DNA from: a virus | Length of the DNA: 44,662 bases | Strand: one strand, 5' to 3' | IMG/VR virus record: IMGVR_UViG_3300046692_000223 | Location: 1 to 44,662 of that record | Part shown: positions 12,691 to 34,968 of the stretch, piece after piece | Position numbering within the stretch: the stretch's first letter is position 1 | How the letters are laid out: every line of letters begins with the position of its first letter | Notes under the pieces: generated by a model | The model's input: only the letters and a program-made list of their open reading frames with translations | Databases searched by the model: none | Told to the model about the DNA's origin: nothing | Program-made: the position numbers and the translations under genes

Positions 12691-12707
12691 GTTTGCACAA
12701 CGCAAAC
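12691..12707. promoter_or_regulatory. Operator copy 1, GTTTGC-N5-GCAAAC
   Basis: Perfect 6-5-6 inverted repeat with spacer ACAAC. It is the copy nearest the leftward early operon and probably overlaps its promoter. Confidence 0.8.
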
Positions 12708-12723
12708 ATGATTGCAAGCGCTA

Positions 12724-12740
12724 GTTTGCGGAAAGCAAAC
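12724..12740. promoter_or_regulatory. Operator copy 2, GTTTGC-N5-GCAAAC
   Basis: Perfect repeat with spacer GGAAA, 33 bases from copy 1. It lies on the same helix face and suits cooperative repressor binding. Confidence 0.8.
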
Positions 12741-12807
12741 ATTGTTGGCGCGGCAATGTGGCCAATCTGGAAATCAGCGAATCAGGTCATACGGGAAACC
12801 GCTTTAT

Positions 12808-13577: not shown

Positions 13578-13613
13578 ATGCCTGATCGCACGATTTGATG
13601 CGTCAGGCGGGGA

Positions 13614-13654
13614 GCAAACATTAGCTGTTGCAGAAATGTTTGCGCTATGCAAAC
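13614..13654 (+). promoter_or_regulatory. Rightward promoter/operator (PR-like) with divergent repressor promoter
   Basis: TTGCAG (13628-13633) lies four bases before operator copy 3, the same spacing as TTGCAA to operator copy 1 on the other side. A half-site GCAAAC sits at 13614-13619, towards the repressor gene. The -10 element is not clear. Confidence 0.6.
13638..13654. promoter_or_regulatory. Operator copy 3, GTTTGC-N5-GCAAAC
   Basis: Perfect 17-bp repeat with spacer GCTAT, ending eight bases before the cro start codon. Bound protein should block rightward transcription. Confidence 0.8.
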
Positions 13655-13662
13655 ATGCTGGC

Positions 13663-14266: not shown

Positions 14267-14764
14267 GTGAGCCAAGCGCGCCACATGCAGGAACCGGAAG
14301 CGAGCGGCATGCTCAAGCTTGCCCAGATGTACGGCCCCGCGCGCCCGCTCTCGGATCGCGAGGCGTGGTATATCGATTCCGCGCTGACCGCCTATGGCAC
14401 GATCAAAGGCCCCGGCAAGGAAATCATCGGCGATTGGCTGGTCGCGAAAGCTAAGACCTTCAAAGGCTGGCCCAGCGCGTATAGCTTCTTCAATCGCACC
14501 AGCAAGCAACGCTGCTGGAATATCGCCGCGTATCATCATCCTGCCAGCCTGTGCTGGTCGTGGATGATGTCGGTCAGCATCGGTCGCGCCGTTCTCGGTA
14601 GCTGGCGCCATCCGTTTTATCGCTTTGGCGGCCAGGTCGCGATCTGCATCCCGCACGTGATCGAGTTCCGCTTTCACCGCCAGCGCTCCGATTGGATGGT
14701 GAGCCTCGCGGCAGAACAAATGCTGAGTTTCCTGTGCATGCATAATCGCGAGACCCGGCCATGA
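14267..14764 (+). CDS. Early protein of unknown function
   Basis: This 165-aa protein starts at a GTG behind GGAGGGC (spacing 7). Its first half is helical (REAWYIDSALTAYGTIKGPG) and its second half is aromatic and rich in Trp, Cys and His. It could be a DNA-binding early regulator from its place after cro, but no motif proves this. The stop overlaps the next start (ATGA). The 182 bases before it (14085-14266) hold no convincing gene. Confidence 0.6.
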   Translation: MSQARHMQEPEASGMLKLAQMYGPARPLSDREAWYIDSALTAYGTIKGPGKEIIGDWLVAKAKTFKGWPSAYSFFNRTSKQRCWNIAAYHHPASLCWSWMMSVSIGRAVLGSWRHPFYRFGGQVAICIPHVIEFRFHRQRSDWMVSLAAEQMLSFLCMHNRETRP

Positions 14765-15303
14765 CCCCCACCGTCATCCCTGAGAGGCCCTACCGCGCAA
14801 CGCGCTCCGATGCGCTCACCGACCGCAATCAGGATATCATTCAGCGCTCGCGTGCTGGCGAGAACGTGTGGAAGATTGCCCGGCGCTATAGCATCTCTCG
14901 CGCTCGCGTGTACCAGATTTGCGGCCCTGATCGCCCCCGCTTCATCAATCGCCGCGTAGACAACAAAGTTGTTCTTGGCTTGGTGGGCAAACCCGTTGGG
15001 GTCTGCGGCGCCATAACGATGAGCTACCCGCAATCTCTGCGCTGCATGCTGAGCGTCGGTGGTGTCGAATATTACCTTCCGCCGACTGAGCATCGGATCC
15101 TTGAAACGCTGCTGCTCAACCGTGGGCGCGTCGTAGAGCGCGACGATATCATCGAATATGTTTGGCCGAACCCCGATGCCGCACCGCAATACGAGCGCGA
15201 AAATCTCCGCGTCCATCTCGCGCGGATGAACAAGCGGCTGCCCGGCCTGATCCGCAATGAATGGGGCCGTGGCTGGTGCATCCCGATCGAAGGGAGAGCC
15301 TAA
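14761..15303 (+). CDS. Regulator with N-terminal HTH and OmpR/PhoB-type winged helix
   Basis: This 180-aa protein has two DNA-binding units. Residues about 20-54 form a resolvase-like HTH (DIIQRSRAGENVWKIARRYS, then ISRARVYQICG). Residues about 95-178 match the C-terminal effector domain of response regulators: LPPTEHRILETLLLNRGRVV, then RDDIIEYVW, ENLRVHLARMNKRL and GRGWCI. There is no receiver domain. It sits early in the rightward operon, so it is a candidate activator or repressor of later genes. It overlaps the preceding gene by four bases. Confidence 0.78.
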   Translation: MTPTVIPERPYRATRSDALTDRNQDIIQRSRAGENVWKIARRYSISRARVYQICGPDRPRFINRRVDNKVVLGLVGKPVGVCGAITMSYPQSLRCMLSVGGVEYYLPPTEHRILETLLLNRGRVVERDDIIEYVWPNPDAAPQYERENLRVHLARMNKRLPGLIRNEWGRGWCIPIEGRA

Positions 15304-15459
15304 ATGCCCCTCATCTTCACCCTCACAGCAATCGCCGGGCACGTCCTCGCGCTCGCCTACCTGTACCTCCAGACGCCCCACGATCTCGGCCACCAGAGAC
15401 CCGATGTGAACTGGCGTGTTGGCGCGGCTGTTTCTGTCCATAACGGAGCGAATAAATGA
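15304..15459 (+). CDS. 51-aa membrane peptide
   Basis: This short ORF begins one base after the previous stop and overlaps the next start by four bases (ATGA). It has one hydrophobic segment (about residues 3-23) and a polar C-terminus. The function is unknown. Confidence 0.55.
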   Translation: MPLIFTLTAIAGHVLALAYLYLQTPHDLGHQRPDVNWRVGAAVSVHNGANK

Positions 15460-15941
15460 CCGCCCCCCTGTGTTCAGCGAACAAAGTTCCGCTCGTTTCC
15501 CGCAGCGCAGCATTTATCGAATTTGCCGCCGCGCTCGATCTCTATGTCGGTCGGGGGAAGCGCTATTCGGTCAAGCAGCTATCCAATGCGACCGGCGTTC
15601 CCGATCGCCGCATCGAGTGCGCGCGCTACGATCCCGAGCATGAAGAGTTTCGCCCGCTCGACCTGGGCCATGTGCTTTCGATCAGCCGCTTCCTCGGTCC
15701 CGAGTTCACCACCGAATGGCTGAAGCTCGCCGATCAGGGCGCGTTCTGGCTGCCGGATGTCGAGGACACGCCGCCGGGTGCGATTGCCGCGGACAATAGC
15801 GACGACAATGCCGTGATCGTTCGAGCCGCGCTCGATGGCGAGTTCGATAGCGACGAGAAGAAGGTTCTGCGCCCGGTCGGCCTGCGCATGGTCGCGCGTG
15901 GTCAGCAGCTCGTGGCGATCAGCAGAGCAGCAGCCGCCTAA
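15456..15941 (+). CDS. Putative phage regulator (CII-like position)
   Basis: This 161-aa protein has a region KQLSNATGVPDRRIECARYD (about 40-59), followed by FRPLDLGHVLSISRFLGPEF, which together read like an HTH regulator of the CP76/CII or XRE type. The C-terminus is acidic, then Ala/Arg-rich. It lies before the recombination genes in the rightward early operon. The CII-like role is inferred from position and fold impression only. Confidence 0.6.
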   Translation: MTAPLCSANKVPLVSRSAAFIEFAAALDLYVGRGKRYSVKQLSNATGVPDRRIECARYDPEHEEFRPLDLGHVLSISRFLGPEFTTEWLKLADQGAFWLPDVEDTPPGAIAADNSDDNAVIVRAALDGEFDSDEKKVLRPVGLRMVARGQQLVAISRAAAA

Positions 15942-17154: not shown

Positions 17155-18026
17155 TGGCTACCGCAATCACCACCGCTTCCGACGCCACACCGGCGCCCGT
17201 GCAATATCAATCCGCCGAAGCCGCCAAGTTCGCGCTTATGCAGCGCCAGGCACAGCTTTTCGCGTTCTCCCCGCTGGTACCCGACGCGCTGCGCAAGGGC
17301 ACGCCGCAACAGGCGATGGCGAACTGCTATATCGCGATGACGATCGCCGACCGGATGGGCGAGGACCGCATGACGGTCATGCAGAACATCCACATCATCC
17401 ACGGCACCGCCGGCTTCAAGACGAAGTATATGATCGCCCGCGCGAACGCCTCCGGCAAGTTCCGCGATGACATCGACTGGGAGATCAGCGGGAAGGACGG
17501 TGGCTTGTCCGCGACCGCATTTGCCACGCTCGCCAAATCCGGCAAGCGCGTCGCGATCACCGTAGATATGGCGATGGCCAAGGCGGAGGGCTGGACCAGC
17601 AACAAGAAGTACCAGACGATGCCGGAAGTCATGCTGCGCTATCGCAGCGCGTCGTTCCTGATCAACCTCTACGCACCCGAAGTCATGCTCGGCTACCAGA
17701 CGGCGGAGGAGGTCGAGGATATCTCCTATGCGATGTCGCCGGAGACCGCGCCCGTCACCTCCGCCATGCTGCTGGAGCAGGCGCGGCCCGACCCGGAGCC
17801 CGAAACCGAAGAGCAGGGCCGCTCCGACGCCGACATGGGCGAAGCCTTCACCACCACCGACGCCGAAGCCGACATCCTGGCTCATCTCGCCCGCAAGACG
17901 ACGGTGATCGACATCAATTCGCTGGTGTCGTCGCGCCGCGGGGAGTTGGACGAGGATGGGCAGGCGAGGGTGCAGGAAGCGGCTGTGGCGCGGATCGCTG
18001 AGTTGAAGGGACGGATCGATGGCTAA
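17154..18026 (+). CDS. recT: RecT single-strand annealing protein
   Basis: This 290-aa protein anneals complementary ssDNA in phage recombination together with the exonuclease upstream. The RecT core is clear: PLVPDALRKGTPQQAMANCY, MTIADRMGEDRMTVMQNI, then HGTAGFKTKYMIARANASG and a C-terminal KYQTMPEVMLRYRSASFLI. After about residue 200 the chain is acidic and variable, as usual for host-partner interaction tails. It overlaps the next gene by eight bases. Confidence 0.9.
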   Translation: MATAITTASDATPAPVQYQSAEAAKFALMQRQAQLFAFSPLVPDALRKGTPQQAMANCYIAMTIADRMGEDRMTVMQNIHIIHGTAGFKTKYMIARANASGKFRDDIDWEISGKDGGLSATAFATLAKSGKRVAITVDMAMAKAEGWTSNKKYQTMPEVMLRYRSASFLINLYAPEVMLGYQTAEEVEDISYAMSPETAPVTSAMLLEQARPDPEPETEEQGRSDADMGEAFTTTDAEADILAHLARKTTVIDINSLVSSRRGELDEDGQARVQEAAVARIAELKGRIDG

Positions 18027-18567
18027 GGCTGAGCCCCTTACGCAGCGGCGCTGGCTGGGCGCTGAGAAACTGGCGCGGATAAAGCGGCTGCACGAAGGCG
18101 GCTATAGCTATCCCGAGATAGCCATCCGCATTGGTGTCGATCGCAAGGTCGTGCGCAAGGCGATCCTGCGTGGGTGCAAGCAACGTTCCGTGGATCTGCC
18201 GCCGACGCCGTGGGATTTGGTCCGATACGCGCCCGTCGAGACCATCCAGCAACTGCAGCGCCGATATTCCCGCGGTGCAGAGACGATCCGAAGGTGGATT
18301 GCCGAAAAGAACATCCAGCGGCCTAACATGCACCACATCCATTGCTCGCGGCCATGTCCGCCGGACTTTGCCGCGCGGGCCGGGTCCATGACGATTCCTC
18401 AGCAGGAAAAGGCATGGAACGTCAGTCGGCCAGTGATCACGCGGTGGCGGAAGGAATGCGGGCTGCCAACGCCGCGTGCCGATTACATCGCACGCAAGAA
18501 GGCGGAACAGGCGCCGAAGCCCAAGGTCTATTGGGTGGATGAAATCGCGATGCGGAATGCCGCATGA
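18019..18567 (+). CDS. Protein with repeated HTH segments
   Basis: This 182-aa basic protein has three HTH-like segments: [20 protein letters not shown] (about 21-40) with a recognition helix [10 protein letters not shown], a second near [20 protein letters not shown] and a third near [19 protein letters not shown]. Three similar short DNA-binding units in a row suggest a binder of repeated sites. It could act in replication or regulation, but no family name was recognised. Confidence 0.65.
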
Positions 18568-19046
18568 CCGCCGGCTCCGTCAACCTGCGCACCTACCGTA
18601 TCGCGCGGCGCGACGGAGCCGATCGCGAAAGCGCGGCCATGCTCGCTGACATCACCAGCGCCGAAGCCAAGCTGATCGACCGCGACGACGAGCGCGATCC
18701 GCCGGGGCTGGAGTGCTTCGAACCTATCCGGGCCGTCATCGGCCACAACTCGCAGGAGAAGACCATGGTGGACAATGTTGCGGCCGATCAACTCCGGCTC
18801 TTTATCGAGCGCATCGAGCGCCTGGAGGAAGAGAAGCGCGGAATCTCCGACGACATCAAGGATATCTATCTGGAGGCAAAATCGCAGGGTTATGACCCGA
18901 AGATCATGCGCATCATCGTCCGCGACAGGCGCATGGACAAGCAGATGCGCGATGAGCGGGACGCCATTCTCGAGACTTATCGCGCCGCGCTGGGGATGCT
19001 CTCCGACACGCCCCTTGGGGCATATGCACTGTCGCGCGCCGCATGA
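18564..19046 (+). CDS. GapR (DUF2312) domain protein with N-terminal extension and internal start
   Basis: The C-terminal 93 residues (from Met68) are a GapR/DUF2312 domain: [20 protein letters not shown], then [20 protein letters not shown] and a conserved [19 protein letters not shown]. Host GapR encircles overtwisted, AT-rich DNA and supports replication in Alphaproteobacteria. The frame is open for 67 residues upstream, to an ATG coupled to the previous gene, but an AGGAG six bases before 18765 marks a strong internal start. A long and a short form, or only the short one, may be made. The extension has no recognised domain. Confidence 0.82.
18755..18767 (+). promoter_or_regulatory. Internal ribosome site and start of the GapR domain
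   Basis: AGGAG followed six bases later by ATG at 18765, in frame with the longer ORF. It marks the start of a GapR of normal family length (93 aa). Confidence 0.65.
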
Positions 19047-23045: not shown

Positions 23046-23239
23046 TCTACTATGACACCAAGCCCGTGTTCGCCCGCGATCGGGGCGACGATATCGAGAT
23101 CGGCGTGCATGAGAAGGTCGGCTCCGTCTCAGTCATCGCGCGTGTTGGCGACTACGGCGTCGCGCTCGATCGGCTGATCCTGGCCAAGCTGGCCTTGGAG
23201 GCGAAGATCAGGGAGGCGGTTGCGGCATGCCCGATATGA
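23042..23239 (+). CDS. 65-aa protein of unknown function
   Basis: This short beta-rich N-terminal protein (IEIGVHEKVGSVSVIARVGD) ends with a C-terminal helix. It is coupled to terL (ATGA) and overlaps the next ORF. No family was recognised; such small genes often lie between terminase and portal. Confidence 0.6.
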   Translation: MIYYDTKPVFARDRGDDIEIGVHEKVGSVSVIARVGDYGVALDRLILAKLALEAKIREAVAACPI

Positions 23240-23388
23240 AATTCCGCTGGGACATCGAATGGGCACCGATATGGCCAGTGCAGCCGAGATACCGCAAGGA
23301 CGGCAGGCTCGACATGCGTTTCAAGGAAAGCCAGATGTTCGCGCGTGGCGAGATGATGCACGGGATCATCTATCTGCCCACGGATTAG
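23227..23388 (+). CDS. 53-aa protein of unknown function
   Basis: This short ORF overlaps the end of the preceding gene by 13 bases. It is basic and aromatic (FRWDIEWAPIWPVQPRYRKD). Its stop codon TAG lies inside the palindrome that starts at 23385, so coding and regulatory sequence overlap. The function is unknown. Confidence 0.55.
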   Translation: MPDMKFRWDIEWAPIWPVQPRYRKDGRLDMRFKESQMFARGEMMHGIIYLPTD

Positions 23389-23410
23389 GCAATTGCCTAA
23401 AAAATAGGCA
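23385..23410. repeat. Late palindrome copy 1 (TGCCTA-N5-TAGGCA plus an extra half-site)
   Basis: TGCCTA-AAAAA-TAGGCA occupies 23394-23410, and its left arm is also part of a perfect 16-bp palindrome TTAGGCAATTGCCTAA (23385-23400), so three half-sites lie in a row. GCTATTT follows three bases after. It is 33 bases before the portal start and is the only sizeable gap between the terminase genes and the portal. Confidence 0.75.
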
Positions 23411-23443
23411 GATGCTATTTCATCCTCGAACAGCGGGGATCGA

Positions 23444-25648
23444 ATGGAGACACAGCCGGATGATGACACGGACAACGAGGCGGAGGAGTCCGACGCCACG
23501 CATTTGTCCGAGGTCCATGCCCGCGCGATGGAGCGCTTCTCCGATTTCAAATGTCAGGTCGAGATCCGTGCGGAGTCGCTGCAGGCCCGTCGCTTCGTGT
23601 CGATCCCAGGCGCTCAATGGGAAGGCGAATGGGGCCTTCAGTTCGAGAACGGCATCCGTGTTGAGGTCAACAAGACGGCGCGCGGGCTGGAGAAGATCGA
23701 GACGGACTATCGCGCCAACCGGCTGACCGTCGACTATCGCGCCGTGTCCAACGATGCGAACGACCACACGGCATCCACGCTCGATGGTGTGCATCGCGCC
23801 GATGCCTACCACTTCAAATCGCAACAGGCACGGGACAATGCGTTTCAGGAGGCTGTCTCGGGTGGCTTCGGTGCCTATCGCCTGACCACGGACTATGCCG
23901 ACCCTTACGACAAGGACAGCGACGAGCAGCGGGTGAACCCCGGCATGGTCATCGTGGATGCCGACCAATCGGTGTTCATGGACCTGAACAGCAAGCTCTA
24001 CGACAAGTCCGATGCGAAGTTCGGCTATGTGCTGACGGCGATGACCCGGCAGGCATTCACGGCCGAGTATGGCGCTCATCGCGCAGCCGATTGGCCGTCG
24101 AACCTGATCAAGCCATGGTACGACTGGTACACGCCCGACATCGTTCGCATCGCCGAATATTACGAGGTCGAGGACACCGACGAGAAGCTGTGGATCTTCA
24201 CCAATCCGGTAAGCGACGCTTCGCAGCGCTGGTTCGACAGCGAGATCGAGGCGCAGGCGCGTACCGATCTCGTCACCCAGGGATGGAAGCAGTCAAGCCG
24301 TAAGGTCAAGCGCCGCCGCGTCCACAAATATGTGATGTCCGGCGCCGAGATATTGGAGGATAACGGCTATATTGCCGGCTCCTGCCTCCCGATCGTCTGC
24401 GTCTATGGCAAGCGCTGGTTCATCGACAATATGGAGCGGTGGCGCGGCCATGTGCAGCTCGCGATGGATTCTCAGCGCATCTACAACGCTGAGGTCTCCA
24501 AGCTCGTCGAGACGAGTTCTCTGGCACCCCGCGAAGTCCCGATCGTCACGCCCGGCCAGATTGCCGGCCATGAAAGCGCATGGGCCGACCAGAACCGTAA
24601 TCGCTCGCCCTATTTGCTGCTGAATCCCACGGTCGACGCGAACGGCAATGAGATTCCCACGCCGCCCATCGGTTCGATCAAGCCGCCAGACGTCCCCCAG
24701 GTTACCGCGGCGCTTCTCCAGATCGCCAGCAATGACCTGACCGAGGTCACGAACAGCGAGGATGGCGCCGACGAGGTTGTTTCGAACACCTCACATGCTG
24801 CGATGGACCTTGCCGCGACGCGCACCGATGCGAAGTCGGGCATCTACATGGACAATATGCGCCAGTCCGTGCAGCGCGAGGGCGAAATCTATCTAGACAT
24901 GGCCAAGGAGGTCTATTTCGAGCCGGGCCGCAAGGTGGAGACGCTGGGCGAGGACGGTGAGGAGGGCACCGAAGTCCTGCATGAGGGATTCACCGACGAA
25001 ACCGGCCTGTACATGATTCGCAACGATCTCCAGCGCGGCAAGTACAAGGTCATCTCGGACGTGACCGAGGCGACCAGCACGCGCCGCGACAAGACCGTGA
25101 ACCAGATGCTGAACGTCGCACAGGTGGCGACCGCCGGGCAGGACATGGAGCTAGCCTCTGCCGCCCTGTCCGTGGCCGTGCAGCAGATGGACGGCGAGGG
25201 GCTGGACGAGCTTCAAGCGTGGAACCGTCAACGGATGCTCAAGATCGGGCTCGCGAAGCCGACGCCGGAAGAACAGGCACAGATGGAGCAGGCGCAGAAC
25301 GCCGATCAGCAGCCCGACCCCGCGCAGACCGCGCTACTGGCACAGGCGGCCGAACTGGCGGCATCGGCGGACCTGAAGAAGGCGCAGGCGGCCAAAGCTG
25401 AAGCCGATACGCAGCAGTCGAAGGCCAAGACCGTGCTGACCCTGGCGCAGGCAACGGCAGTCGGCGGGCCGGAGAGTGCTCCTTCGGGAATGCGCCCCGC
25501 CGAATCGCCACTCGATCAGGCGAAGAAGATTGCCGAGATCCATCACGTCGCGCGCAAGACGACCGCGATCGACGATGCACACAGGATTGCCGCCCACGAC
25601 GCACAGACGCGCCGTATCGCGGCGGAAAGGCCGGCTGGTACGGCCTGA
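23444..25648 (+). CDS. Portal protein, P22 gp1-like
   Basis: This 734-aa protein (P22 portal 725 aa) forms the dodecameric ring through which DNA enters and leaves the head. Typical P22-portal blocks are the early IEIRAESLQARRF-like region, VEVNKTARGLEKIETDYRAN, a PIVCVYGKRWFIDNMERWRG-type core and STRRDKTVNQMLNVAQVAT. The C-terminus (about 615-730) is Ala/Gln-rich and helical, like the barrel of P22 that reaches into the head. The start follows a GGGGAT stretch. Confidence 0.92.
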   Translation: METQPDDDTDNEAEESDATHLSEVHARAMERFSDFKCQVEIRAESLQARRFVSIPGAQWEGEWGLQFENGIRVEVNKTARGLEKIETDYRANRLTVDYRAVSNDANDHTASTLDGVHRADAYHFKSQQARDNAFQEAVSGGFGAYRLTTDYADPYDKDSDEQRVNPGMVIVDADQSVFMDLNSKLYDKSDAKFGYVLTAMTRQAFTAEYGAHRAADWPSNLIKPWYDWYTPDIVRIAEYYEVEDTDEKLWIFTNPVSDASQRWFDSEIEAQARTDLVTQGWKQSSRKVKRRRVHKYVMSGAEILEDNGYIAGSCLPIVCVYGKRWFIDNMERWRGHVQLAMDSQRIYNAEVSKLVETSSLAPREVPIVTPGQIAGHESAWADQNRNRSPYLLLNPTVDANGNEIPTPPIGSIKPPDVPQVTAALLQIASNDLTEVTNSEDGADEVVSNTSHAAMDLAATRTDAKSGIYMDNMRQSVQREGEIYLDMAKEVYFEPGRKVETLGEDGEEGTEVLHEGFTDETGLYMIRNDLQRGKYKVISDVTEATSTRRDKTVNQMLNVAQVATAGQDMELASAALSVAVQQMDGEGLDELQAWNRQRMLKIGLAKPTPEEQAQMEQAQNADQQPDPAQTALLAQAAELAASADLKKAQAAKAEADTQQSKAKTVLTLAQATAVGGPESAPSGMRPAESPLDQAKKIAEIHHVARKTTAIDDAHRIAAHDAQTRRIAAERPAGTA

Positions 25649-25683
25649 CGGCAACCGTTGCGCCGTAAGCAGCGAGTGAAGGA

Positions 25684-26523
25684 ATGAACATGGCGACCGA
25701 TCCAAGCACGATTATCGAAGACGAGCCGCTTGAGCTTGATGTGAACGATATCATCCAGCCCGAAGAGGGCGCGCCCACCCCCGAAACTGAGGAAGATGCC
25801 GAAGAGACGATCGTCGGCTTCGGCGAGGATGGTGACGGCGATGATGACCAAGGTGGCACCGATCTCGTTCGCCACATGCGCAGCGAGTTCAAGCGCGTTC
25901 AGGCCGAGAATCGCGAACTGCGCGCCCGCCTGCCCGTCGACAAGCCGATCGATGCGGGGCCGAAGCCCACGCTCGAAAGCCTCGAATGGGACGAGGAGAA
26001 ATTCGAGGCCGCCTTGCTCGCCTGGAATGACCGCACGCGACAGGCCAAGGACAGCCAGACCGAAGCGCAGCGTCAGCAGGAAGCCATTCAGGAGCAGTGG
26101 CAGGCCGAACTGGCGAGCTACAACGAGAAGAAGGTCGCGCTGAAGCTGCCCGACTTCGACGATGCCGAGACGACGGTGAAAGCCTCACTCGATGCCATGC
26201 AGCAGACCGTGTTGATCAAGGCATGCGCCAATCCGGCTGCCGTTGTCGCAGCGCTCGGCAAATCCCCGGGCCGCCTGACGGACATCGCGAAGATCAAGGA
26301 TCCGATCAAGCTGGCGGTCGCGCTCAATAATCTGGAAAGGGACGTGAAGGTGACCACCCGCAAGAAGCCGCCGGCTCCGGAATCGCATGTGCGTGGCGCC
26401 GCGCCACTGTCCACCGGCAATAGCGACAAGCGCCTTGCCGAACTGGAGAAGGAGGCGGATCGCACGGGGGATCGGTCCAAGGTTATCCAATATCGGCGCG
26501 AGCAGCGTGCATCGGCGTCCTGA
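25684..26523 (+). CDS. Scaffolding protein, P22 gp8-like
   Basis: This 279-aa protein guides coat assembly and leaves the procapsid. The N-terminus is very acidic (EDGDGDDDQG near 50), the middle is helical, PAAVVAALGKSPGRLTDIAK (about 178-197) is a recurrent scaffold block, and the C-terminus is a short basic helical hairpin (about 247-279), the type that binds coat in P22. It lies between portal and coat as in P22. Confidence 0.85.
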   Translation: MNMATDPSTIIEDEPLELDVNDIIQPEEGAPTPETEEDAEETIVGFGEDGDGDDDQGGTDLVRHMRSEFKRVQAENRELRARLPVDKPIDAGPKPTLESLEWDEEKFEAALLAWNDRTRQAKDSQTEAQRQQEAIQEQWQAELASYNEKKVALKLPDFDDAETTVKASLDAMQQTVLIKACANPAAVVAALGKSPGRLTDIAKIKDPIKLAVALNNLERDVKVTTRKKPPAPESHVRGAAPLSTGNSDKRLAELEKEADRTGDRSKVIQYRREQRASAS

Positions 26524-26538
26524 ACAAGTCGCTTGCTC

Positions 26539-26555
26539 TGCCTAAAAAATAGGCA
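26539..26555. repeat. Late palindrome copy 2 (TGCCTA-N5-TAGGCA)
   Basis: Exact repeat of the 17-bp unit before the portal, here in the 130-base gap between the scaffold stop and the coat start. GCTACGA follows four bases after it. Confidence 0.8.
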
Positions 26556-26582
26556 TATTGCTACGACCACGCCACCCAGCGC

Positions 26583-26646
26583 CCCCTGCTGTGAAGGGGA
26601 GATCGGCGATCCCGGCAAGACCGGGCTGATCTCAACACAGCAGGGG
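26583..26646 (+). promoter_or_regulatory. Nested hairpin sequestering the coat ribosome site
   Basis: An 11-bp perfect outer stem (26583-26593 with 26636-26646) encloses GAGATC/GATCTC (26599-26604 with 26628-26633) and an inner CCCGG/CCGGG hairpin (26611-26625). The 3' strand of the outer stem ends AGGGG, seven bases before the coat ATG, so the Shine-Dalgarno is paired. This suggests control of coat translation, or protection of the message. Confidence 0.7.
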
Positions 26647-26653
26647 CATTCCC

Positions 26654-27913
26654 ATGGCAAACAGCTTTTCCAAGCAAGAGACGGTCGCGTTCGAGAAGGT
26701 CTTCGAGAAGTTCGAAGACGCGCTGGTGATCTCGAACCTGTTCAGCAAATATATCATCCCGAATGTGCTGGCAGAGCGCTCCGGCAACACTGTCTGGCGC
26801 CCGATGCCCTACATCGCGCAGTCGTTCACCGGCATCGACCAGAGCGCCAACTTCGCGCGCAACTACACGCAGCTTTCGGTGCCGACCACGCTCGGCTATT
26901 CGCACTCGGTGCCGCTGACCCTGTCCGCGACCGAGCTTCGCGACATGCTGCAGGAAGAGCGCCTGGGTGAAGCCGCGCTGCAGCGTCTCGCGAGCGACAT
27001 CAACGTCGATTGCTCGAATCTCGCTGCCCTGACCGGCACCATCTTCGTGAAGCGCGCCGCGGCCGCGAGCGGCTTCGATGACGTAGCCGCGATCGACACC
27101 AAGCTCAACAATCTGGGCGTCCCGATGAGCGAGCGCAGGCTCGTCCTGTCGTCGGCCGACTATAACGGCATGGCATCCAACCTGGCCGCCCGCACGCTCG
27201 GGCAGAGCGCCAAGTCGCTCAACGCCTATGAGATGGCCAAGGTCGGCATGGTCGCGAGCTTCGACACCTACAAGCTCGACTATGCCTATCGCCTCACCGC
27301 TGCGGCGGGTTCGGGCATCACGCTCAACGCCGCCAACCAATATTACACGCCGAAGGCGACTTCGACGGCGGCGACCGGCGAGACGAGCAACGTCGACAAC
27401 CGCTATCAGTCGATCACGGTCAACTCGACCACGAGCGTCAAGGCGGGCGATGCGTTCACCATCCTGGGCGTGAACGAGGTCCATCACATCACGAAGCTGG
27501 ACACCGGCTCGCTCAAGACGTTCCGCGTCATCTCGGTGACCAATTCCACCACGATGGTCATCTCGCCGCCTATCATCTCGGCAGGCGGCGGCACCGATCC
27601 CGAGCTGCAGTACAAGAACGTTACCGCGACGCCGACCAGCACGGCGGCGATCACCTTCCTCAACACGGTATCCGGACCGGTCAATCCGTTCTGGCAGGCC
27701 GACGCATTCGAGATCGTGCCGGGGCAGTACATGCCGCCGCCCGATGTCGGCATGGCCACGATGAAGGCGACCACGACCAACGGCGTCACCGTGCTGATGA
27801 CCCGGCAGGGCGCGATCGGGGATCTCAGCACCAAGTACCGCTGGGACGTGTTCTTCGGCCTTGTGAACAAGCAGCCGGAGATGACCGGCGCCGAGATGTT
27901 CTCGCAGACCTGA
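26654..27913 (+). CDS. Major coat protein, P22 gp5-like
   Basis: This 419-aa protein (P22 coat 430 aa) has the HK97-type fold with a P22-like insertion domain. Recognisable parts are FEKFEDALVISNLFSKY near the start, GNTVWRPMPYIAQSF, DMLQEERLGEAALQRLASDI (spine helix region), then a beta-rich insertion (about 230-320) and a closing TRQGAIGDLSTKYRWDVFFG. It is preceded by a strong RNA hairpin covering its ribosome site. Confidence 0.92.
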   Translation: MANSFSKQETVAFEKVFEKFEDALVISNLFSKYIIPNVLAERSGNTVWRPMPYIAQSFTGIDQSANFARNYTQLSVPTTLGYSHSVPLTLSATELRDMLQEERLGEAALQRLASDINVDCSNLAALTGTIFVKRAAAASGFDDVAAIDTKLNNLGVPMSERRLVLSSADYNGMASNLAARTLGQSAKSLNAYEMAKVGMVASFDTYKLDYAYRLTAAAGSGITLNAANQYYTPKATSTAATGETSNVDNRYQSITVNSTTSVKAGDAFTILGVNEVHHITKLDTGSLKTFRVISVTNSTTMVISPPIISAGGGTDPELQYKNVTATPTSTAAITFLNTVSGPVNPFWQADAFEIVPGQYMPPPDVGMATMKATTTNGVTVLMTRQGAIGDLSTKYRWDVFFGLVNKQPEMTGAEMFSQT

Positions 27914-27930
27914 ATCCAGGAGGCAGTCCG

Positions 27931-28104
27931 ATGGAATTCCCCGCAACGCTCTACAAGGTCGGCACCGCCTTCGAATGGGATGGCGCGACGTTCGACTTCC
28001 TCGTCGTCAATGACAGCGAGGAGGCGGACGCCGCCGCCAAGGATGGCTGGTCGATCGGCAAGCCCGTGCCGAAGTCCGCATCGGCGAAGAAGGAACCCTC
28101 GTAA
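27931..28104 (+). CDS. 57-aa protein after coat
   Basis: This short gene has a perfect AGGAGG before its ATG, so strong translation is expected. It is a small beta-rich unit (TLYKVGTAFEWDGATFDFLV) with an acidic middle and a Lys/Ser-rich tail. Its stop overlaps the next start (TAATG). A minor head component is possible but not shown. Confidence 0.65.
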   Translation: MEFPATLYKVGTAFEWDGATFDFLVVNDSEEADAAAKDGWSIGKPVPKSASAKKEPS

Positions 28105-28694
28105 TGGCATCGTCGACCGCAAAATCCTTCCGCGTCACTACGCTCACGGTCCCTGCCGGGTCCAAGCTGGCGACCTATAGCGGCCTGAGCTACAGCGTCG
28201 ACTATGTAGCCGCCTTCTCGAACGAGCCGCCGGCTACGCTGAATTCGTTCAGCGGCTCCGGCGCGAACACCACCGCTGCGTTCTCCAACGACACGGTGGT
28301 GACGATCACGGCAGGCGATGCGGCGGTAATGTACGCCGTGGGCGTCGCCCCGGTGGTCTATGACCGGGTGGGTTACCAGCCGACCCCCGGCACGCTGAAC
28401 GCGACCGGCACGCTGACTGCGGCGCTGATCACGGGCGGCATTGTCACGTCGACGACGGCAGCGGCCGTGGCTGCGACGCTTGAAACCGGGGCCACTCTCG
28501 ATGCGGCGACCGCCATGTCGATCGGCGACAGTTTCGATTGGAGCGCGATCAACACGGGCGGCAACACCTTCACGGTGACGGCTTCGACCGGCCACACGAT
28601 CGTCGGCGTCGCTGCGGTAGTGACCGTCACGTCGGGGCAGTTCCGCACCCTGAAGACCGCTGCGGCGACGTTCGTCACCTATCGCATATCGTAA
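28104..28694 (+). CDS. Putative head decoration protein
   Basis: This 196-aa protein is rich in Thr, Ala, Gly and Val, with almost no charged residues and alternating hydrophobic patterns that predict beta structure throughout. Place right after coat and composition fit a decoration or head-fibre protein. No family was recognised. Confidence 0.62.
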   Translation: MASSTAKSFRVTTLTVPAGSKLATYSGLSYSVDYVAAFSNEPPATLNSFSGSGANTTAAFSNDTVVTITAGDAAVMYAVGVAPVVYDRVGYQPTPGTLNATGTLTAALITGGIVTSTTAAAVAATLETGATLDAATAMSIGDSFDWSAINTGGNTFTVTASTGHTIVGVAAVVTVTSGQFRTLKTAAATFVTYRIS

Positions 28695-28703
28695 GGTCGG
28701 GGC

Positions 28704-28723
28704 CGCGAGCGCCGTTCCTCGCG
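28704..28723 (+). other. Short hairpin before the 28738 gene
   Basis: CGCGAG-N8-CTCGCG just upstream of the ribosome site (AGGAGG at about 28727). It may be a processing or spacing element; no T-run follows. Confidence 0.35.
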
Positions 28724-28737
28724 AGCAGGAGGATTGA

Positions 28738-29367
28738 ATGGCTCTCGGTTACTATACAGGCAAGCGCGGCTTTTTCGGGTTTCTGACAAGCGCCGTCGGA
28801 GAAGATGGGCAGACCAGCAAGGGTGTGCTTGATGCTGTTGCTCTCGTCGATTCGGCGGGAAATCCGATTGGCGCTGGGGATGGCACGCTTTCCGTTGCCG
28901 CCACAGGCATCACCGCATCCGCCAGCTTCACCCCAGCCGCTGCGGCTTATGGCGCGGGCGACATCATGTCGGTGGCGCAGCCCTTCGCCTTCACCTACGC
29001 GAACGGTAGCGCGATCCCGGCCGGGTCGCTGATCCGCATCCTGACGGCGATCGTGAAGATCGACCAGACCGCGCTGCAGGCGAGCGAGGCGGCTTACACG
29101 CTGCAATGCTATTCGGTGACGCCACCGAGCGCGCAGGCTGACAATGCGGCGTGGACGCTGGCCTCGGCCGATCTGCCTTCCTATCGCGGGGCAATTGGCT
29201 TGGGGACACCGGTAGATCTCGGCGCCGCCTGCTACATCAAGACACCCAACGTCGATCTCGATATCAAACTGAGCACGGCGAGCCTGTTCGCTGAACTCCA
29301 GACCGTTGCCGGGTTCACCGCAACGGCGGTAGCGCGACAGGTCCTGCTTTATGGAATCGTGCTGTAA
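28738..29367 (+). CDS. Putative virion structural protein
   Basis: This 209-aa protein is beta-rich, with Ala/Gly/Thr-dominated composition and a short N-terminal KRGFFGFLTSAVG segment. A strong AGGAGG precedes its ATG. It abuts the SGNH protein by one base. It is probably part of the head surface with its neighbours, by position only. Confidence 0.6.
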   Translation: MALGYYTGKRGFFGFLTSAVGEDGQTSKGVLDAVALVDSAGNPIGAGDGTLSVAATGITASASFTPAAAAYGAGDIMSVAQPFAFTYANGSAIPAGSLIRILTAIVKIDQTALQASEAAYTLQCYSVTPPSAQADNAAWTLASADLPSYRGAIGLGTPVDLGAACYIKTPNVDLDIKLSTASLFAELQTVAGFTATAVARQVLLYGIVL

Positions 29368-31502
29368 TGATCCCCGGCTCGCGCCGCGTAATCCTGATGA
29401 CACGCCGTGTCGCTTCATATCCGGCCGCAGTCTATGACAGTTTCGCCGCGCCTACAGGCTCGATCAACGGGCGCGCCACCGAAACTGGCGGCCTGACCTG
29501 GGCGATATCCGCCTATCTGGGATCGAACACGACGGCCCTGTCCGTCCTCGTCGCCGGGAAACTCTCCGGCACACAGGGCACGGCTCCGCAACAGAGTTTC
29601 GGCTACGTCACGACGGCGGTGACGGACAACCAGTGGATCACCCGCCAGATGGCGCTGATCACCGGCATGACCACGTCGCTTCTTGTTGGTGATCATATCA
29701 CGAGCAGTGGCGGCGCCTTCAGTTCGCTCGCATTGGCGTCGTCGACGGCGACAGGCGTAGCCGGTGCGTTGACTTGGCGGCCAACCGTCGCGGGCGTAAC
29801 AGGCACCACTGCTACCATAGGGCTCAACATTACCCCCGTCGACGGCGACAGCTTCCAGGCGCGCTATTCCAAGCCCGCTTCGAACGTCCTCGTCGATCTC
29901 TACATGAACGGGCGCAAGATCGGCGCGCAGTACGATCTGACGGCCGGCGCCCCAACGCTGCCGCTGACCTACTCCCATGGCTTCCGCGGCACGCTGCCTA
30001 ATACGGGCCCGGTGGATTCGATCGAGATCGGCGATCCGACAGTCGCGGGCATGGTTACGGCATTCCTGCCCAATCGCATTATCCAGATGGATGGTGCGGG
30101 TGGCGGACCCTTCCCCTTGAATGGCGAATATACGCGAGGTGCGCTGCCGTCGCTCGAATACGAGATCCGCGATACGGCCGATGCGAGCCTTGTCGACTGG
30201 ACATCGGTAGCCAGCTTTACCGCCGCCTCGCAGGCATACACGGGCATGTCGCAGACGGTCGTTTCACCTCCATCGGCCGGGATCAAGGCGCGCGTCCGCC
30301 GTGGCGCTCTAGGCGGTGGATACGCCTATTCGGCCTATGGCCCGGCTCAGAAGTTCGGCCATGTCGTCCTGTTCACTGGCCAATCACTGACGACCAACAT
30401 GTGGGCCGGAACCACGGGCGTTACACTGACCGCAGGCGCCAATCTGTGGAGTGTTGGCGGCTCGCTCGGGCAGGGCGGAACGGTGACGTGGCCCAACGAT
30501 GCCGATCGCAGGCAATTGAAGATCGTCGACAACAGCCCGATGGCGATGTTCGGCAACACGATCCAGAGTGTGGACACGGCGCGCCCTGTCTCCACGATCT
30601 TCGGCGGTCGCGGCGGCACATATACCTGGGAGCGCCTGCCGGGGACGGCAAACAACGATGCGCAGCGCGATGGCATCCGACATGCCGGGCTCAACTTCGC
30701 GACCGCAATCATCAACAGCGGGCAGTTTGAGTGCGTCACCGACACGACCAAGATCGCAACCTATGCCGCCGATACAGCATCGATCGTCGCCGATAACGAG
30801 GCGCTGATCGGCCGCGCTGCGAAGTGGATCATGACGCCGCTCACGTCGGTTTGGGGCGCCACGGACGCCAACAGCGAGACGTTGCGGCGCATCCAGTGGG
30901 CGATGTGCCAGGCGGACCCGACGCGGTATTTCTGGGGGCCGCAGCTATGCGATATCCAGCACGCGACGAGCGACGTGTACCACTTCGTGGCTGCTGGCTA
31001 TGTCGAGGAAGCGCGGCGCTACGCATGGTCGTGGCTCAAGATGATGGGCTTCTCGACCTATGATCGCAGCGGGCCTATCCTGCTTTCGGCGGTCAAGGAT
31101 AGCTCCAGCCAGTTGACCGTGACGTTCGATCTGAACGGCGCATCGGGGCTCGAGATCGCCAACTCGGGCTTTCTCGGCGACTATCGGGGTGGCTTGCGTT
31201 TCGCCGCGGCATCTTCGTTCGCCTCGCCGCTTTCGCCTCTGCTCGCGACCATCAACGCGGTTGTCGGCACGACGCAGAGCATCACCTATACATTCACAGG
31301 CACGCCGTTCCTGAGCGGTCCCGGCTACGTCTCCAGCCTGTACGGAACCGAGCCGTTCAACCCGAGCGGCGATGCGACGATCCGCGCGAACTACGCCACG
31401 CAGGCTTCGATGCTGCGCGGGCTGTGGAGCGGGACCAATGAGCAGAACATCCCCATCCAGCCCTATTACTCAGCGGGGGGTGATTATGTCACGGCGAGTT
31501 GA
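29367..31502 (+). CDS. Large virion protein with SGNH/sialate-O-acetylesterase-like domain
   Basis: In this 711-aa protein residues about 330-555 resemble an SGNH hydrolase: block I VVLFTGQSL with Ser340, a middle FGGRGGTYTWERLPG, and block V SDVYHFVAAGY with Asp536 and His539. Flanking parts (about 1-320 and 560-700) are beta-rich, Gly/Ser/Thr-dominated and look like carbohydrate-binding or fibre modules. It sits between coat and gp4, where P22 has no such gene, so it may be a head-attached esterase acting on surface glycans. Substrate and activity are unknown. Confidence 0.75.
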   Translation: MIPGSRRVILMTRRVASYPAAVYDSFAAPTGSINGRATETGGLTWAISAYLGSNTTALSVLVAGKLSGTQGTAPQQSFGYVTTAVTDNQWITRQMALITGMTTSLLVGDHITSSGGAFSSLALASSTATGVAGALTWRPTVAGVTGTTATIGLNITPVDGDSFQARYSKPASNVLVDLYMNGRKIGAQYDLTAGAPTLPLTYSHGFRGTLPNTGPVDSIEIGDPTVAGMVTAFLPNRIIQMDGAGGGPFPLNGEYTRGALPSLEYEIRDTADASLVDWTSVASFTAASQAYTGMSQTVVSPPSAGIKARVRRGALGGGYAYSAYGPAQKFGHVVLFTGQSLTTNMWAGTTGVTLTAGANLWSVGGSLGQGGTVTWPNDADRRQLKIVDNSPMAMFGNTIQSVDTARPVSTIFGGRGGTYTWERLPGTANNDAQRDGIRHAGLNFATAIINSGQFECVTDTTKIATYAADTASIVADNEALIGRAAKWIMTPLTSVWGATDANSETLRRIQWAMCQADPTRYFWGPQLCDIQHATSDVYHFVAAGYVEEARRYAWSWLKMMGFSTYDRSGPILLSAVKDSSSQLTVTFDLNGASGLEIANSGFLGDYRGGLRFAAASSFASPLSPLLATINAVVGTTQSITYTFTGTPFLSGPGYVSSLYGTEPFNPSGDATIRANYATQASMLRGLWSGTNEQNIPIQPYYSAGGDYVTAS

Positions 31503-31521
31503 TGGCGGGAGGAATGGTTAG

Positions 31522-32262
31522 ATGGCCGTCACCTGGGCAGCCAAATCACCTAATGAGATCCGCACCTACGGCCTGAACTGGATAGGCAGGCTTCAGGGCG
31601 ACACCATCGCGTCCTCAACGCTGGTGGTGACCGATGGCACGGTCACGCTCTCGGATGTCGCGAACACGGTCAACGCGATCACCGCGAAGGTGTCGGGCGG
31701 CGCGGCTTGCGAATCAGCGGTGCTGACGAACACCATCGTCACGGCGAATGGCAGCACCTTCGAGGAAACCATCACGCTGAGCATCGTCGCCGATGGATCG
31801 CTCAATGCGATGCCGTCGACAGCGATCAAGCGCATCATCGTCGACATGGCGTTCGAGGAGGCGGCTCTCGCGGGCTATGAGTTCGACCTGACCGCGGACG
31901 AACTGCAGACCGCCCTGCGCCGGCTCGATGGCCTGATGGCGGAATGGCAGGGCCAAGGCATCAATCTCAATTATAACCAGCCGGCGACGTTCGGGCAGGG
32001 CGATCTGGACGACCAAAGCGGCATCCCCGATGCGACATTGAACGGGGCGGCGCTCTATCTCGCGATGCGCATCTTCCCGCGCTTCAACAAGGTGATGAAG
32101 GCGGGAACCCGCATTGCCCTGGCGAACGCGATGATGACGATTCGCGCGCTCGGCTCAAAAACGCCGCTCGTGCAATATCGCTGGGGAACGCCGCGCGGGG
32201 CTGGCAATCGACGGTTTGGCTCTCTCAGCCCCTTCATCTATTGGACCGATTGTTCCTGCTGA
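31522..32262 (+). CDS. Head-completion protein, P22 gp4-like, with extra N-terminal domain
   Basis: In this 246-aa protein residues about 100-240 match the P22 gp4 tail-accessory family (DMAFEEAALAGYEFDLTADE, then LQTALRRLDGLMAEW and a NYNQP loop), which plugs the portal after packaging. Residues about 1-88 form an added Ig-like beta domain starting WAAKSPNEIRTYGLNWIGRL, of a type seen in phage surface and fibre proteins. P22 gp4 (166 aa) lacks it. The stop overlaps the gp10-like start (TGATG). Confidence 0.8.
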   Translation: MAVTWAAKSPNEIRTYGLNWIGRLQGDTIASSTLVVTDGTVTLSDVANTVNAITAKVSGGAACESAVLTNTIVTANGSTFEETITLSIVADGSLNAMPSTAIKRIIVDMAFEEAALAGYEFDLTADELQTALRRLDGLMAEWQGQGINLNYNQPATFGQGDLDDQSGIPDATLNGAALYLAMRIFPRFNKVMKAGTRIALANAMMTIRALGSKTPLVQYRWGTPRGAGNRRFGSLSPFIYWTDCSC

Positions 32263-33671
32263 TGGTTCAGGCCCCGATCCCGATCCTCGAAGGCATCTAC
32301 GCCGACAGCCAGAGCGGCTTCGTCAGTTCGCTGCCGATCAACCGCGAGCCGTTCGTGCAGGATACCGGCATATCGAAAGGCTATCTGCGCTGCGCCCCAG
32401 GTGTCGATCTCTTCGCCACGGGACCGGGCGCCGACCGCGGGGGCATCAACTGGAATGAGACCTGCTATCGCGTGATGGGCACGGCGCTGGTGTCGATCGC
32501 GGCGGACGGAACAATGACCACCATAGGCGATGTCGGAGCAGGCGGCCCGGCCAAGTTCGACTATTCGTTCGACCGGCTCGGCATCAACAGCGGCACCGAT
32601 CTTTGGTATTGGGATGGCACAGCACTCGCGCGCGTGACCGACATCGATCTCGGCACGGTCATAGACTTCATCTGGGTCGACGGCTATTTCATGACGACCG
32701 ATGGCGAATTCATCGTCGTGACCGATCTCAACGACCCGTTTTCGGTGGATCCACTCAAATATGGGTCATCGGAAGCGGACCCCGACCCGATCACCGGCCT
32801 GATCAAGATACGGGACGAGGTCTATGCGCTCAATCGCAACTCGATCCAGGGCTTTACCAATGTCGGCGGCTCCGGCTTCCCCTTCTCGGTCAATCCCGGC
32901 GCGATCATCGACAAGGGCTGTGTCGGGCCGCGGGCCAAGGCGATATTCATGCAGAGCTTCGCGTTCGTGGGATCGGCGCGCAACGAGGCGCTGGCGGTCT
33001 ATATGGCGGGAGCAGGCCAGGCCGAGAAGATATCCGGGCAGGAACTGGATGACGCCCTCGCGCTGCTGACGGATGAACAGGCGCGCGCGATCGAGCTTGA
33101 GACGCGCATCGAGAAGGACGAGCAGCGGCTGATCGTGCATCTGCCCGACCAGAGTTTCGTATTTTACGCGTCGGCCTCGCAGACCTTCGGGAAAAAGGTG
33201 TGGACGATCCTGAAGGACGGCATCCTGATGGACCAGCCCTATGCGTCGCGGCATCTGGTGCGCTGCTATGCGAAATGGATCGTGGGCGACGATCAGGGCC
33301 GCGTCGGTGTTCTGAATCAGGGGGCGGAAACGCGTTTCGGATCGGTGGCAGGCTGGCAGTTCGACACGCCTCTCGTCTTCAATGGCGGCTCGCGCGGCAT
33401 CATCAATGCACTGGAGCTTGTGGGCCTGCCCGGCAATGCTCCGTTCGGCACAGATCCGCGGATATTCCTGTCGATCACGACGGACGGGCGGACATGGGGA
33501 CAGGAACGCTCCGTGTCGCCCGGAGCCGCTGGAGAGAGGCGCAAGCGCACGCAGTGGCGGCCGGGGCGTCGCTTCGATCTGTGGTGCGGTCTGCGCTTTC
33601 GCGGTGCGGACGCAGGTACGGCGCCATGGTCTATGCTCAACGCCGATATCGAGGGGCTGGGCGATGCCTGA
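32262..33671 (+). CDS. Tail hub/packaged-DNA stabilisation protein, P22 gp10-like
   Basis: This 469-aa protein (P22 gp10 472 aa) forms the hexameric tail hub below gp4 and carries the tailspikes. It is beta-propeller-like, with repeated short strands and blocks such as YFMTTDGEFIVVTDLNDPFS, then YGSSEADPDPITGLIKIRDE and RIEKDEQRLIVHLPDQSFVF. I use the ATG at 32262 in TGATG rather than an upstream TTG. It overlaps the next gene by eight bases. Confidence 0.88.
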   Translation: MVQAPIPILEGIYADSQSGFVSSLPINREPFVQDTGISKGYLRCAPGVDLFATGPGADRGGINWNETCYRVMGTALVSIAADGTMTTIGDVGAGGPAKFDYSFDRLGINSGTDLWYWDGTALARVTDIDLGTVIDFIWVDGYFMTTDGEFIVVTDLNDPFSVDPLKYGSSEADPDPITGLIKIRDEVYALNRNSIQGFTNVGGSGFPFSVNPGAIIDKGCVGPRAKAIFMQSFAFVGSARNEALAVYMAGAGQAEKISGQELDDALALLTDEQARAIELETRIEKDEQRLIVHLPDQSFVFYASASQTFGKKVWTILKDGILMDQPYASRHLVRCYAKWIVGDDQGRVGVLNQGAETRFGSVAGWQFDTPLVFNGGSRGIINALELVGLPGNAPFGTDPRIFLSITTDGRTWGQERSVSPGAAGERRKRTQWRPGRRFDLWCGLRFRGADAGTAPWSMLNADIEGLGDA

Positions 33672-34266
33672 TCCGATCGAGGTCATGACCAAGGCCGTTC
33701 TGGCGCGGCCGAAGATCTACGAGTTCATGGGCAATCCGACACCCCAGGCCGTGAAGGCGTTCGAGGATCTGCAGCGCGACGCACTTGGTGGCGGCGAGTT
33801 CACGACCGGCGTTCAGAATGCCTCGCTGCTGGTGCTGGCGGCGTCCGATGTGCTGATAGGCGAGCGCGTGCTGACCGAGTCAGCCGCTATTTCCCTTACG
33901 GACGGCGGCGCTGGCGGGGCGCTGACGATCGATCTGGCCGACACGGCCGTCACGCCAAACACCTACGGCTCGGCGAGCGCGACGGTATCGTTCACGGTTG
34001 ACCAGAAGGGCAGGATCACCAGCGCGAACGCATTTAGCCTCAATACCGACAACATCACTGAAGGGGCGAAACTCTTCTATACGGACACACGGGCGCGAGC
34101 CTCGCTCGCCGCCGGCACGGGCCTCACCTATAGCGCGGTGACGGGGGAATTCACCGTCAACGCAGCGCTGGCGGCCCTCGCGGCCGTCTCCGGCCCGGTT
34201 AGCGGGACGTTCGCTTCGCCGACATCCATCACGGTGCAGAACGGCCTAATCGTCGCCATATCCTGA
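33664..34266 (+). CDS. Tail needle or tail-fibre-like protein (gp26 position)
   Basis: In this 200-aa protein the N-terminal half is helical, then a repeated beta-type segment contains NITEGAKLFYTDTRARASLA, a stretch typical of trimeric phage fibres. The last 50 residues are beta-rich and end VQNGLIVAIS. In P22 the needle gp26 (233 aa) lies exactly here, between gp10 and the ejection proteins, so a needle-like plug role is inferred from synteny. Confidence 0.68.
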   Translation: MPDPIEVMTKAVLARPKIYEFMGNPTPQAVKAFEDLQRDALGGGEFTTGVQNASLLVLAASDVLIGERVLTESAAISLTDGGAGGALTIDLADTAVTPNTYGSASATVSFTVDQKGRITSANAFSLNTDNITEGAKLFYTDTRARASLAAGTGLTYSAVTGEFTVNAALAALAAVSGPVSGTFASPTSITVQNGLIVAIS

Positions 34267-34286
34267 TTGCCTATTAAATAGGCAAT
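34266..34286. repeat. Late palindrome copy 3 (ATTGCCTA-N5-TAGGCAAT)
   Basis: Eight-base arms with spacer TTAAA, the longest copy of the family. It begins at the last base of the needle-position gene. GCTAG follows five bases after the right arm's GGCA. Confidence 0.75.
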
Positions 34287-34299
34287 TCCGCTAGCAATC

Positions 34300-34316
34300 T
34301 GCCTAAAAAACAGGCA
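34300..34316. repeat. Late palindrome copy 4 (TGCCT-N7-AGGCA, degenerate)
   Basis: The inner base pair of the consensus is changed (TGCCTAAAAAACAGGCA). It lies 32 bases from copy 3 and 25 bases before the start of the ejection genes. Confidence 0.65.
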
Positions 34317-34341: not shown

Positions 34342-34968
34342 ATGGGCCTATTCAGTTTTGTCGGCAGCATTCTTGGCGGGAAGTCTTCGAAGAAGGCGGC
34401 CACGAAGGCGGCTGACGCGCAGGTTCAGGCCGCGCAGCTCGGCATCGACGAAACCCGGCGCGAGTTCGATCAGTCCCGCACCGATCAGCTTCCCTGGCTC
34501 AATGCCGGTAAATCCGCGCTCGGCGCGCAGGGCGATCTCCTCGGGTTGAACGGTGGCACCAGCCAGCAGGCATCGATCGATGCACTGCTGAAGTCTCCGC
34601 TCTATCAATCGCTTTTCCAGAATGGAGAGAACACGCTGTTGGCCAATGCGTCGGCATCGGGCGGTCTGCGCGGCGGTAATTTTCAAGCCGCGTCGATGAA
34701 TTTCGGCCGGGATACGCTCTCCCAGGTCATTCAGAGCCAGCTTGCCAATCTTGGCGGCATCTCCTCTCAGGGTGGTGCCACGGGTGCGGGGCTTGGCCAG
34801 CTTGGCGCGCAGGCGGCGCAGTCGATCTCCGGCCTGTACGGCCAGCAGGGCGCGGCTAATGCGGGGAAATATCTCGCGAAGGGTGCGATCAACGCGCAGA
34901 ACTGGAACAACGCTGGCAGCTATCTCGACAATGTCGTGCAGCAGTTCGCCGGGATGGGCGGCTTCTGA
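34342..34968 (+). CDS. DNA ejection/transfer protein (gp7/gp14-like)
   Basis: This 208-aa protein has a short hydrophobic N-terminus (MGLFSFVGSILGGKSSKK), then Gln/Ala/Gly-rich helices (AADAQVQAAQLGIDETRREF, and later QLGAQAAQSISGLYGQQG). This start and composition are typical of P22-like internal virion proteins that leave the capsid with the DNA and help form a channel through the cell envelope. It overlaps the next gene by one base. Confidence 0.78.
   Translation: MGLFSFVGSILGGKSSKKAATKAADAQVQAAQLGIDETRREFDQSRTDQLPWLNAGKSALGAQGDLLGLNGGTSQQASIDALLKSPLYQSLFQNGENTLLANASASGGLRGGNFQAASMNFGRDTLSQVIQSQLANLGGISSQGGATGAGLGQLGAQAAQSISGLYGQQGAANAGKYLAKGAINAQNWNNAGSYLDNVVQQFAGMGGF

Follow-up and report, generated by a model that had tools for sequence, protein, structure and literature searches.

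The phage genome and its late operon

The window, that is, the whole stretch of 44,662 nucleotides that was analysed, is indicated to be a P22-like temperate podovirus. Its identified late genes include those for terminase, portal, scaffold, coat, Ad3- and Hc3-type connectors and ejection proteins, and no Rfam family was found anywhere in it. A temperate lifestyle is deduced from an integrase homologue (4642–5739, minus strand) together with a repressor/cro-like region that has a different operator. The integrase shares 69% identity with one from a Sphingomonadales genome, and the terminase is 80% identical to that of a Sphingopyxis phage, which points to a sphingomonad as the probable host.

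The late operon (21121–43062; 21,942 bases) is tightly packed, with only 424 non-coding bases by our own gene set. These gaps contain, in their entirety, all four copies of a palindrome, TGCCTA-N5-TAGGCA, for which the chance expectation is about 1.3% per site. Three copies are exact, and one (34300–34316) has a single mismatch. The features around them are as follows, with scores in bits from the host-derived matrix described below:

23375–23391, no strand assigned: weak second box adjoining box 1, TGCCCACGGATTAGGCA; 11.3 bits, not significant alone
23394–23410, no strand assigned: putative NtrC-type box 1, TGCCTAAAAAATAGGCA; 26.3 bits; portal start codon 50 bp on
23444–25648, plus strand: portal protein gene (phrog_156, E 6e-114)
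26533–26538, plus strand: candidate -35 element TTGCTC, directly abutting box 2, where the relatives have TTGACC or TTGACG
26539–26555, no strand assigned: putative NtrC-type box 2, TGCCTAAAAAATAGGCA; 26.3 bits; coat start codon 115 bp on
26556–26561, plus strand: candidate -10 element TATTGC, 17 bp past the candidate -35
26577–26605, plus strand: conserved coat-leader hairpin element, CAGCG, stem, loop UGCUGUGAA, GGGGAGA
26654–27913, plus strand: P22-type coat protein gene (phrog_283, E 5.9e-73)
34268–34284, no strand assigned: putative NtrC-type box 3, TGCCTATTAAATAGGCA; 23.9 bits
34300–34316, no strand assigned: putative NtrC-type box 4, TGCCTAAAAAACAGGCA; 23.9 bits; ejection gene 42 bp on
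34342–34968, plus strand: DNA ejection protein gene (phrog_598, E 1e-27)

Box 3 extends to a perfect 10-1-10 palindrome (34266–34286) and lies 32 bp from box 4. These positions, the spacing and the location in gaps, all noted in a preliminary description of the sequence, are borne out, and the family is far above chance: with up to three mismatches there are 23 matches in the window against 9.4 expected, a number reached in 0 of 100 shuffles. The operators form a real family, and they are sited before virion genes only, in the portal, coat and ejection gaps. Other details from the same description survive in part. The GCTA that follows copies 1, 2 and 3 at 3, 4 and 5 bp is present in the window but is not conserved in relatives, and the "third half-site" of copy 1 exists, but as the right half of the weak box at 23375–23391, which overlaps the 3' end of a small ORF (23227–23388).

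Only one other pair of 6-bp arms recurs three times at 5-bp spacing in the window, the immunity-type operator GTTTGC-N5-GCAAAC, which, as previously pointed out, has the same 6-5-6 design and a different sequence. Its copies (12691–12707, 12724–12740 and 13638–13654) surround an HTH-type repressor ORF on the minus strand and a cro-like ORF on the plus strand, the first two lying about 900 bp from the third. Further along, the phage encodes a GapR-like DNA-binding protein (18564–19046; PF10073, E 1.4e-32) and a 180-aa protein (14761–15303) in which an N-terminal HTH like those of the Mor/late-activator families is joined, in an unusual pairing, to a C-terminal OmpR-type winged helix (Trans_reg_C).

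The palindrome matches the predicted operator of host NtrC

Across 120 Sphingomonadaceae genomes there are 51 exact copies of the palindrome, spread over 44 genomes, compared with 14 for a reversed-pattern control. Among 30 of these loci that were read, 19 lie 129–283 bp before glnB and 8 lie 8–79 bp before dusB, making 27 of 30 together; in four genomes (G035, G067, G049 and G059) ntrC follows about 2.1 kb beyond the dusB site. Both glnB and NtrC's own operon are textbook NtrC targets. Once glnB and dusB-ntrBC had turned up as neighbours, readings of the palindrome as a MerR-type, Fis-only or LexA site were dropped.

To avoid circularity, the upstream regions of glnB were also searched without using the phage sequence, by the published NtrC operator rule TGC-N11-GCA (PMC10746234) with an A/T-rich centre. 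Such a site was found in 17 of 30 regions (0.4 expected in shuffles), and the positions left free by the rule gave the consensus TGCCTA-AAATT-TAGGCA. All four phage boxes fit the same rule, A/T-rich centre included. A weight matrix built from 20 host glnB-upstream sites only and applied blind to the window returned the four palindromes as its top four hits (26.3, 26.3, 23.9 and 23.9 bits), the next being at 11.3 bits, while the best score in simulated windows (n = 300) was 19.5 bits. This ranking was unchanged when the single host site with the same sequence as the phage box was dropped. The phage box matches the expected NtrC site almost letter for letter, and the motif, for which the preliminary description knew of no described phage system, is one already used in the likely host group. 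Judged by its letters, the palindrome is very probably an NtrC-type operator.

Conservation in related phages

Searching with the coat protein yielded 53 viral loci, while the bacterial genome collection contained no coat relative. Recurrence of the palindrome at the same gaps in relatives, which had been proposed as a check, is seen in two diverged phages at two of the three positions, but not in most relatives. In L032 (G001; coat 66% identical) an exact copy lies 116 bp upstream of the coat gene, compared with 115 bp in the window, and in L045 (G002; coat 62% identical) it lies 119 bp upstream. Both have a second copy, differing at a single position, in the gap region that separates the head-closure (Hc3) gene from the ejection genes, where G002 carries 17 bases identical to box 4, and the boxes of the two score 23.9–26.3 bits with the host matrix. 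L051 (G003) has a weaker box (19.2 bits) in its Hc3–ejection gap region. The portal box is not shared by G001 or G002. The box is absent from most of the approximately 50 coat relatives, Sphingopyxis phage VSN-002 included, and the module can therefore do without it; none of the three annotated isolate relatives has one either. In the coat gap of G003 (L051:6436–6452), a few bases past a TTGACC, there is another 6-5-6 palindrome, CCCTAT-TGAGA-ATAGGG, possibly the box of another host regulator in the same slot.

The leader of the coat gene has a conserved element of its own. Its consensus, CAGCGACC-[stem]-GGCUGNGACR-[stem]-GAGA, with a nearly constant loop, is found just upstream of the coat gene and recurs in L004, L005, L010–L013, L021, L026, L031, L032, L041, L045 and L051. 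In the alignment, in which one row was padded with an A outside the stem, pairing of the 4-bp stem is kept in 100% of cells, two of the pairs covary, and none of 500 shuffles had as high a covariation score. The element has no Rfam match and may serve to control translation of the coat gene.

How would NtrC act on the virion genes?

In the relatives, a TTGACC or TTGACG ends 0 or 2 bp upstream of the box in five of five boxes, so that the box would fill the spacer of a putative sigma-70-type promoter. The clearest case is G002, TTGACC-TGCCTAAAAAATAGGCA-TATCAC. In the window itself, the corresponding elements are weak (TTGCTC/TATTGC at the coat gene), and there is no TTGAC at the remaining boxes.

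Could the boxes instead be enhancers for sigma-54 promoters? At glnB, -24/-12 elements with 9–11 of 11 matches are found downstream of the boxes in 28 of 30 regions. Near the phage boxes, on the other hand, no such element (TGGCAC-N5-TTGCW) is present, the best candidate matching 8 of 11 positions, and the sigma-54 enhancer reading was not supported. The boxes before host dusB-ntrBC also have low sigma-54 scores (6–8 of 11), and they overlap the apparent promoter/start region. In Sinorhizobium meliloti, PdusB is bound by NtrC, which represses both this operon and PnfeR1 (PMC10746234), and Caulobacter NtrC is likewise a repressor of its own operon (PMC10274813).

Taken together, the promoter layout, the likeness to dusB-ntrBC and this known autorepression make repression of internal late promoters the simplest reading. 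Operators of host NtrC (NR-I) would have been taken into the virion operon of the phage, each in or beside a sigma-70-type promoter core ahead of the modules for portal, coat and ejection. With an NtrC dimer bound to the box, RNA polymerase would be kept out, as happens at the dusB-ntrBC promoter under autorepression. Nitrogen starvation raises the level and activity of NtrC, and the internal late promoters would thus be open when the cell has enough nitrogen and damped when it starves. NtrC binding, promoter activity and repression as the effect are all predictions of this scheme. If the palindrome is an NtrC-type operator, repression of sigma-70 late promoters would be its probable role. Overall, we consider it fairly likely that host NtrC represses sigma-70 promoters within the virion operon and thereby couples the production of particles to nitrogen status; apparently, the virus has linked the making of its particles to the nitrogen state of the infected cell.

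The opposite effect is the most serious competitor: host NtrC may bind but activate the late promoters through sigma-70 polymerase, such that the nitrogen drain caused by infection or starvation boosts the virion genes. Rhodobacter and Caulobacter NtrC do work on sigma-70 promoters (PMC10274813), but these activators lack the GAFTGA motif of the sigma-54 loop, whereas it is present (as GAFTGA or GSFTGA) in all 30 sphingomonad NtrC proteins read, and the glnB targets of sphingomonad NtrC have sigma-54 promoters. Boxes 3 and 4 stand in tandem 32 bp apart, like activating tandems, the box lies upstream of a TTGACA/TATAAT promoter in marine viral contigs, and a parallel exists in what has been proposed for NtcA boxes in cyanophages; in the relatives, however, the apparent position between -35 and -10 would be a blocking one. 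Activation is possible but unlikely.

It is less likely still that the boxes serve another Fis-type protein of the host, such as NtrX, or, jointly with GapR, play an architectural part. In Caulobacter, 37 of 51 NtrC sites overlap a site for GapR (PMC10274813), and the phage has a GapR-like gene itself, but the host copies sit before glnB and NtrC's own operon, the textbook targets of NtrC. A second regulator encoded by the phage and dedicated to virion genes, as the preliminary description suggested, is more improbable yet. Candidates are encoded, namely the 14761–15303 product (HTH + Trans_reg_C) and the HTH_23-like product of 18019–18567, but neither has a match in G001 or G002, and a homologue of the 15456–15941 product is found in G002 only, although both relatives carry boxes. 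Moreover, the sequence and spacer preference are exactly those of the host glnB and dusB-ntrBC operators, as both the host loci and the host-only matrix attest, and an HMM of the NtrC C-terminal DNA-binding domain found nothing significant (best E 0.77) in all six-frame ORFs of the phage and three relatives. A sigma-54 promoter and a phage NtrC-type (NtrC/Fis-type) domain are both absent. Finally, each copy could form a 6–7 bp stem with a 5-nt loop, but it is highly improbable that they act as RNA hairpins, whether as terminators or as processing sites, since none is followed by the T run of an intrinsic terminator, the A tract can face either way with respect to downstream uvrC, dusB or glnB, and the box precedes rather than follows the well-conserved coat leader element.

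The motif in other viruses and bacteria

The 17-mer TGCCTAAAAAATAGGCA was found in at least 120 viral stretches, compared with 6 in a complete scan for a reversed control of the same composition that is also a palindrome, an enrichment of about 20-fold or more in public viral contigs. Approximately 14 of the viral matches were discounted since they lie within terminase coding sequence (..PAYFLGK..); the remaining contexts, among the matches listed, are varied and mostly non-coding. Six contigs among the matches listed (L060, L081, L150, L208, L210 and L216) have the 17-mer upstream of a terminase large-subunit gene. A corresponding scan for TTGCCTANNNNNTAGGCAA was uninformative, as 14 fixed bases are often expected by chance.

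Two arrangements recur. In L060, L081, L097, L099, L109 and L173, the terminase gene is preceded by two NtrC-type boxes that adjoin a parS-like site of chromosomal type (TGTTTCACGTGAAACA). In marine viral contigs (L184, L188, L197, L199, L201, L211, L220, L230, L238 and others), a second NtrC-type palindrome, TGCACA-N5-TGTGCA or close to it, precedes TGCCTA-N5-TAGGCA by about 20 bp, and the pair lies upstream of a TTGACA/TATAAT promoter and an ORF of 73–95 aa of unknown function. It is quite possible, though we would put this forward only tentatively, that NtrC operators have been acquired independently at the promoters of late genes (terminase, portal, coat, ejection) by many unrelated phages infecting alpha- and betaproteobacteria, where they would form a shared nitrogen checkpoint for particle production that is operated entirely by host NtrBC.

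In bacterial genomes, the matches listed for the 19-mer TTGCCTAAAAAATAGGCAA are mainly from alpha- and betaproteobacteria, and their neighbours cluster into uvrC, dusB (with divergent ispDF) and glnB. The 19-mer lies about 75–230 bp before uvrC in at least about 47 alphaproteobacterial loci (L272–L385, e.g. L295, L302, L304 and L340), which suggests that the NtrC regulon includes nucleotide excision repair or else some unannotated gene or RNA within the uvrC gap. The neighbour of approximately 620 aa was at first read as part of a macromolecular-synthesis (dnaG) operon, a reading that was dropped because its sequence is that of UvrC.

Comparison with known systems

Why would a phage attend to nitrogen? 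Virus particles are nitrogen-rich, and if host NtrC gates the virion genes, burst size would follow the nitrogen status of the cell. The outcome of the lysis–lysogeny decision would then perhaps be nitrogen-dependent too, and neither effect would require a sensor encoded by the phage. The motif also offers a handle for spotting nitrogen-responsive phages in metagenomes. In the openly licensed literature, no proteobacterial phage was found to have been reported with an NtrC box, and a search of paper text for the letters of the motif gave chance matches only.

The closest counterparts of the phage boxes are the sphingomonad dusB-ntrBC operators, which have the same 17-bp TGCCTA-N5-TAGGCA with an A/T-rich centre, likewise lack a sigma-54 element and overlap an apparent sigma-70-type core promoter/start region, as the phage boxes may do too. 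However, the dusB-ntrBC box drives host nitrogen regulation genes and follows the apparent -10, whereas the phage box precedes virion genes and, in the relatives, follows the -35. The NtrC enhancers of glnB share the box consensus and are sometimes in tandem, but have a -24/-12 sigma-54 promoter downstream that is missing from the phage gaps. In the Escherichia coli glnA enhancer, two NtrC sites are spaced 32 bp apart, the same distance as boxes 3 and 4, a spacing that would favour cooperative binding. The immunity operators of the phage are also 6-5-6 palindromes in promoter gaps of the same genome, but they differ in sequence, belong to the repressor region (12691–13656) and are presumably read by the phage repressor rather than by NtrC.

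Boxes for host nutrient regulators, NtcA and Pho, have been described in cyanophages. Promoters of marine T4-like cyanophages, including those of T4-core functions, carry NtcA boxes (PMC3037559), so that in both systems the operator of a global nitrogen regulator of the host is found in phage promoters. NtcA, however, is a CRP-family activator of cyanobacteria, whereas here the putative regulator is NtrC, the viruses are P22-like podoviruses of proteobacteria, the effect is probably repression, and the boxes precede virion genes only.
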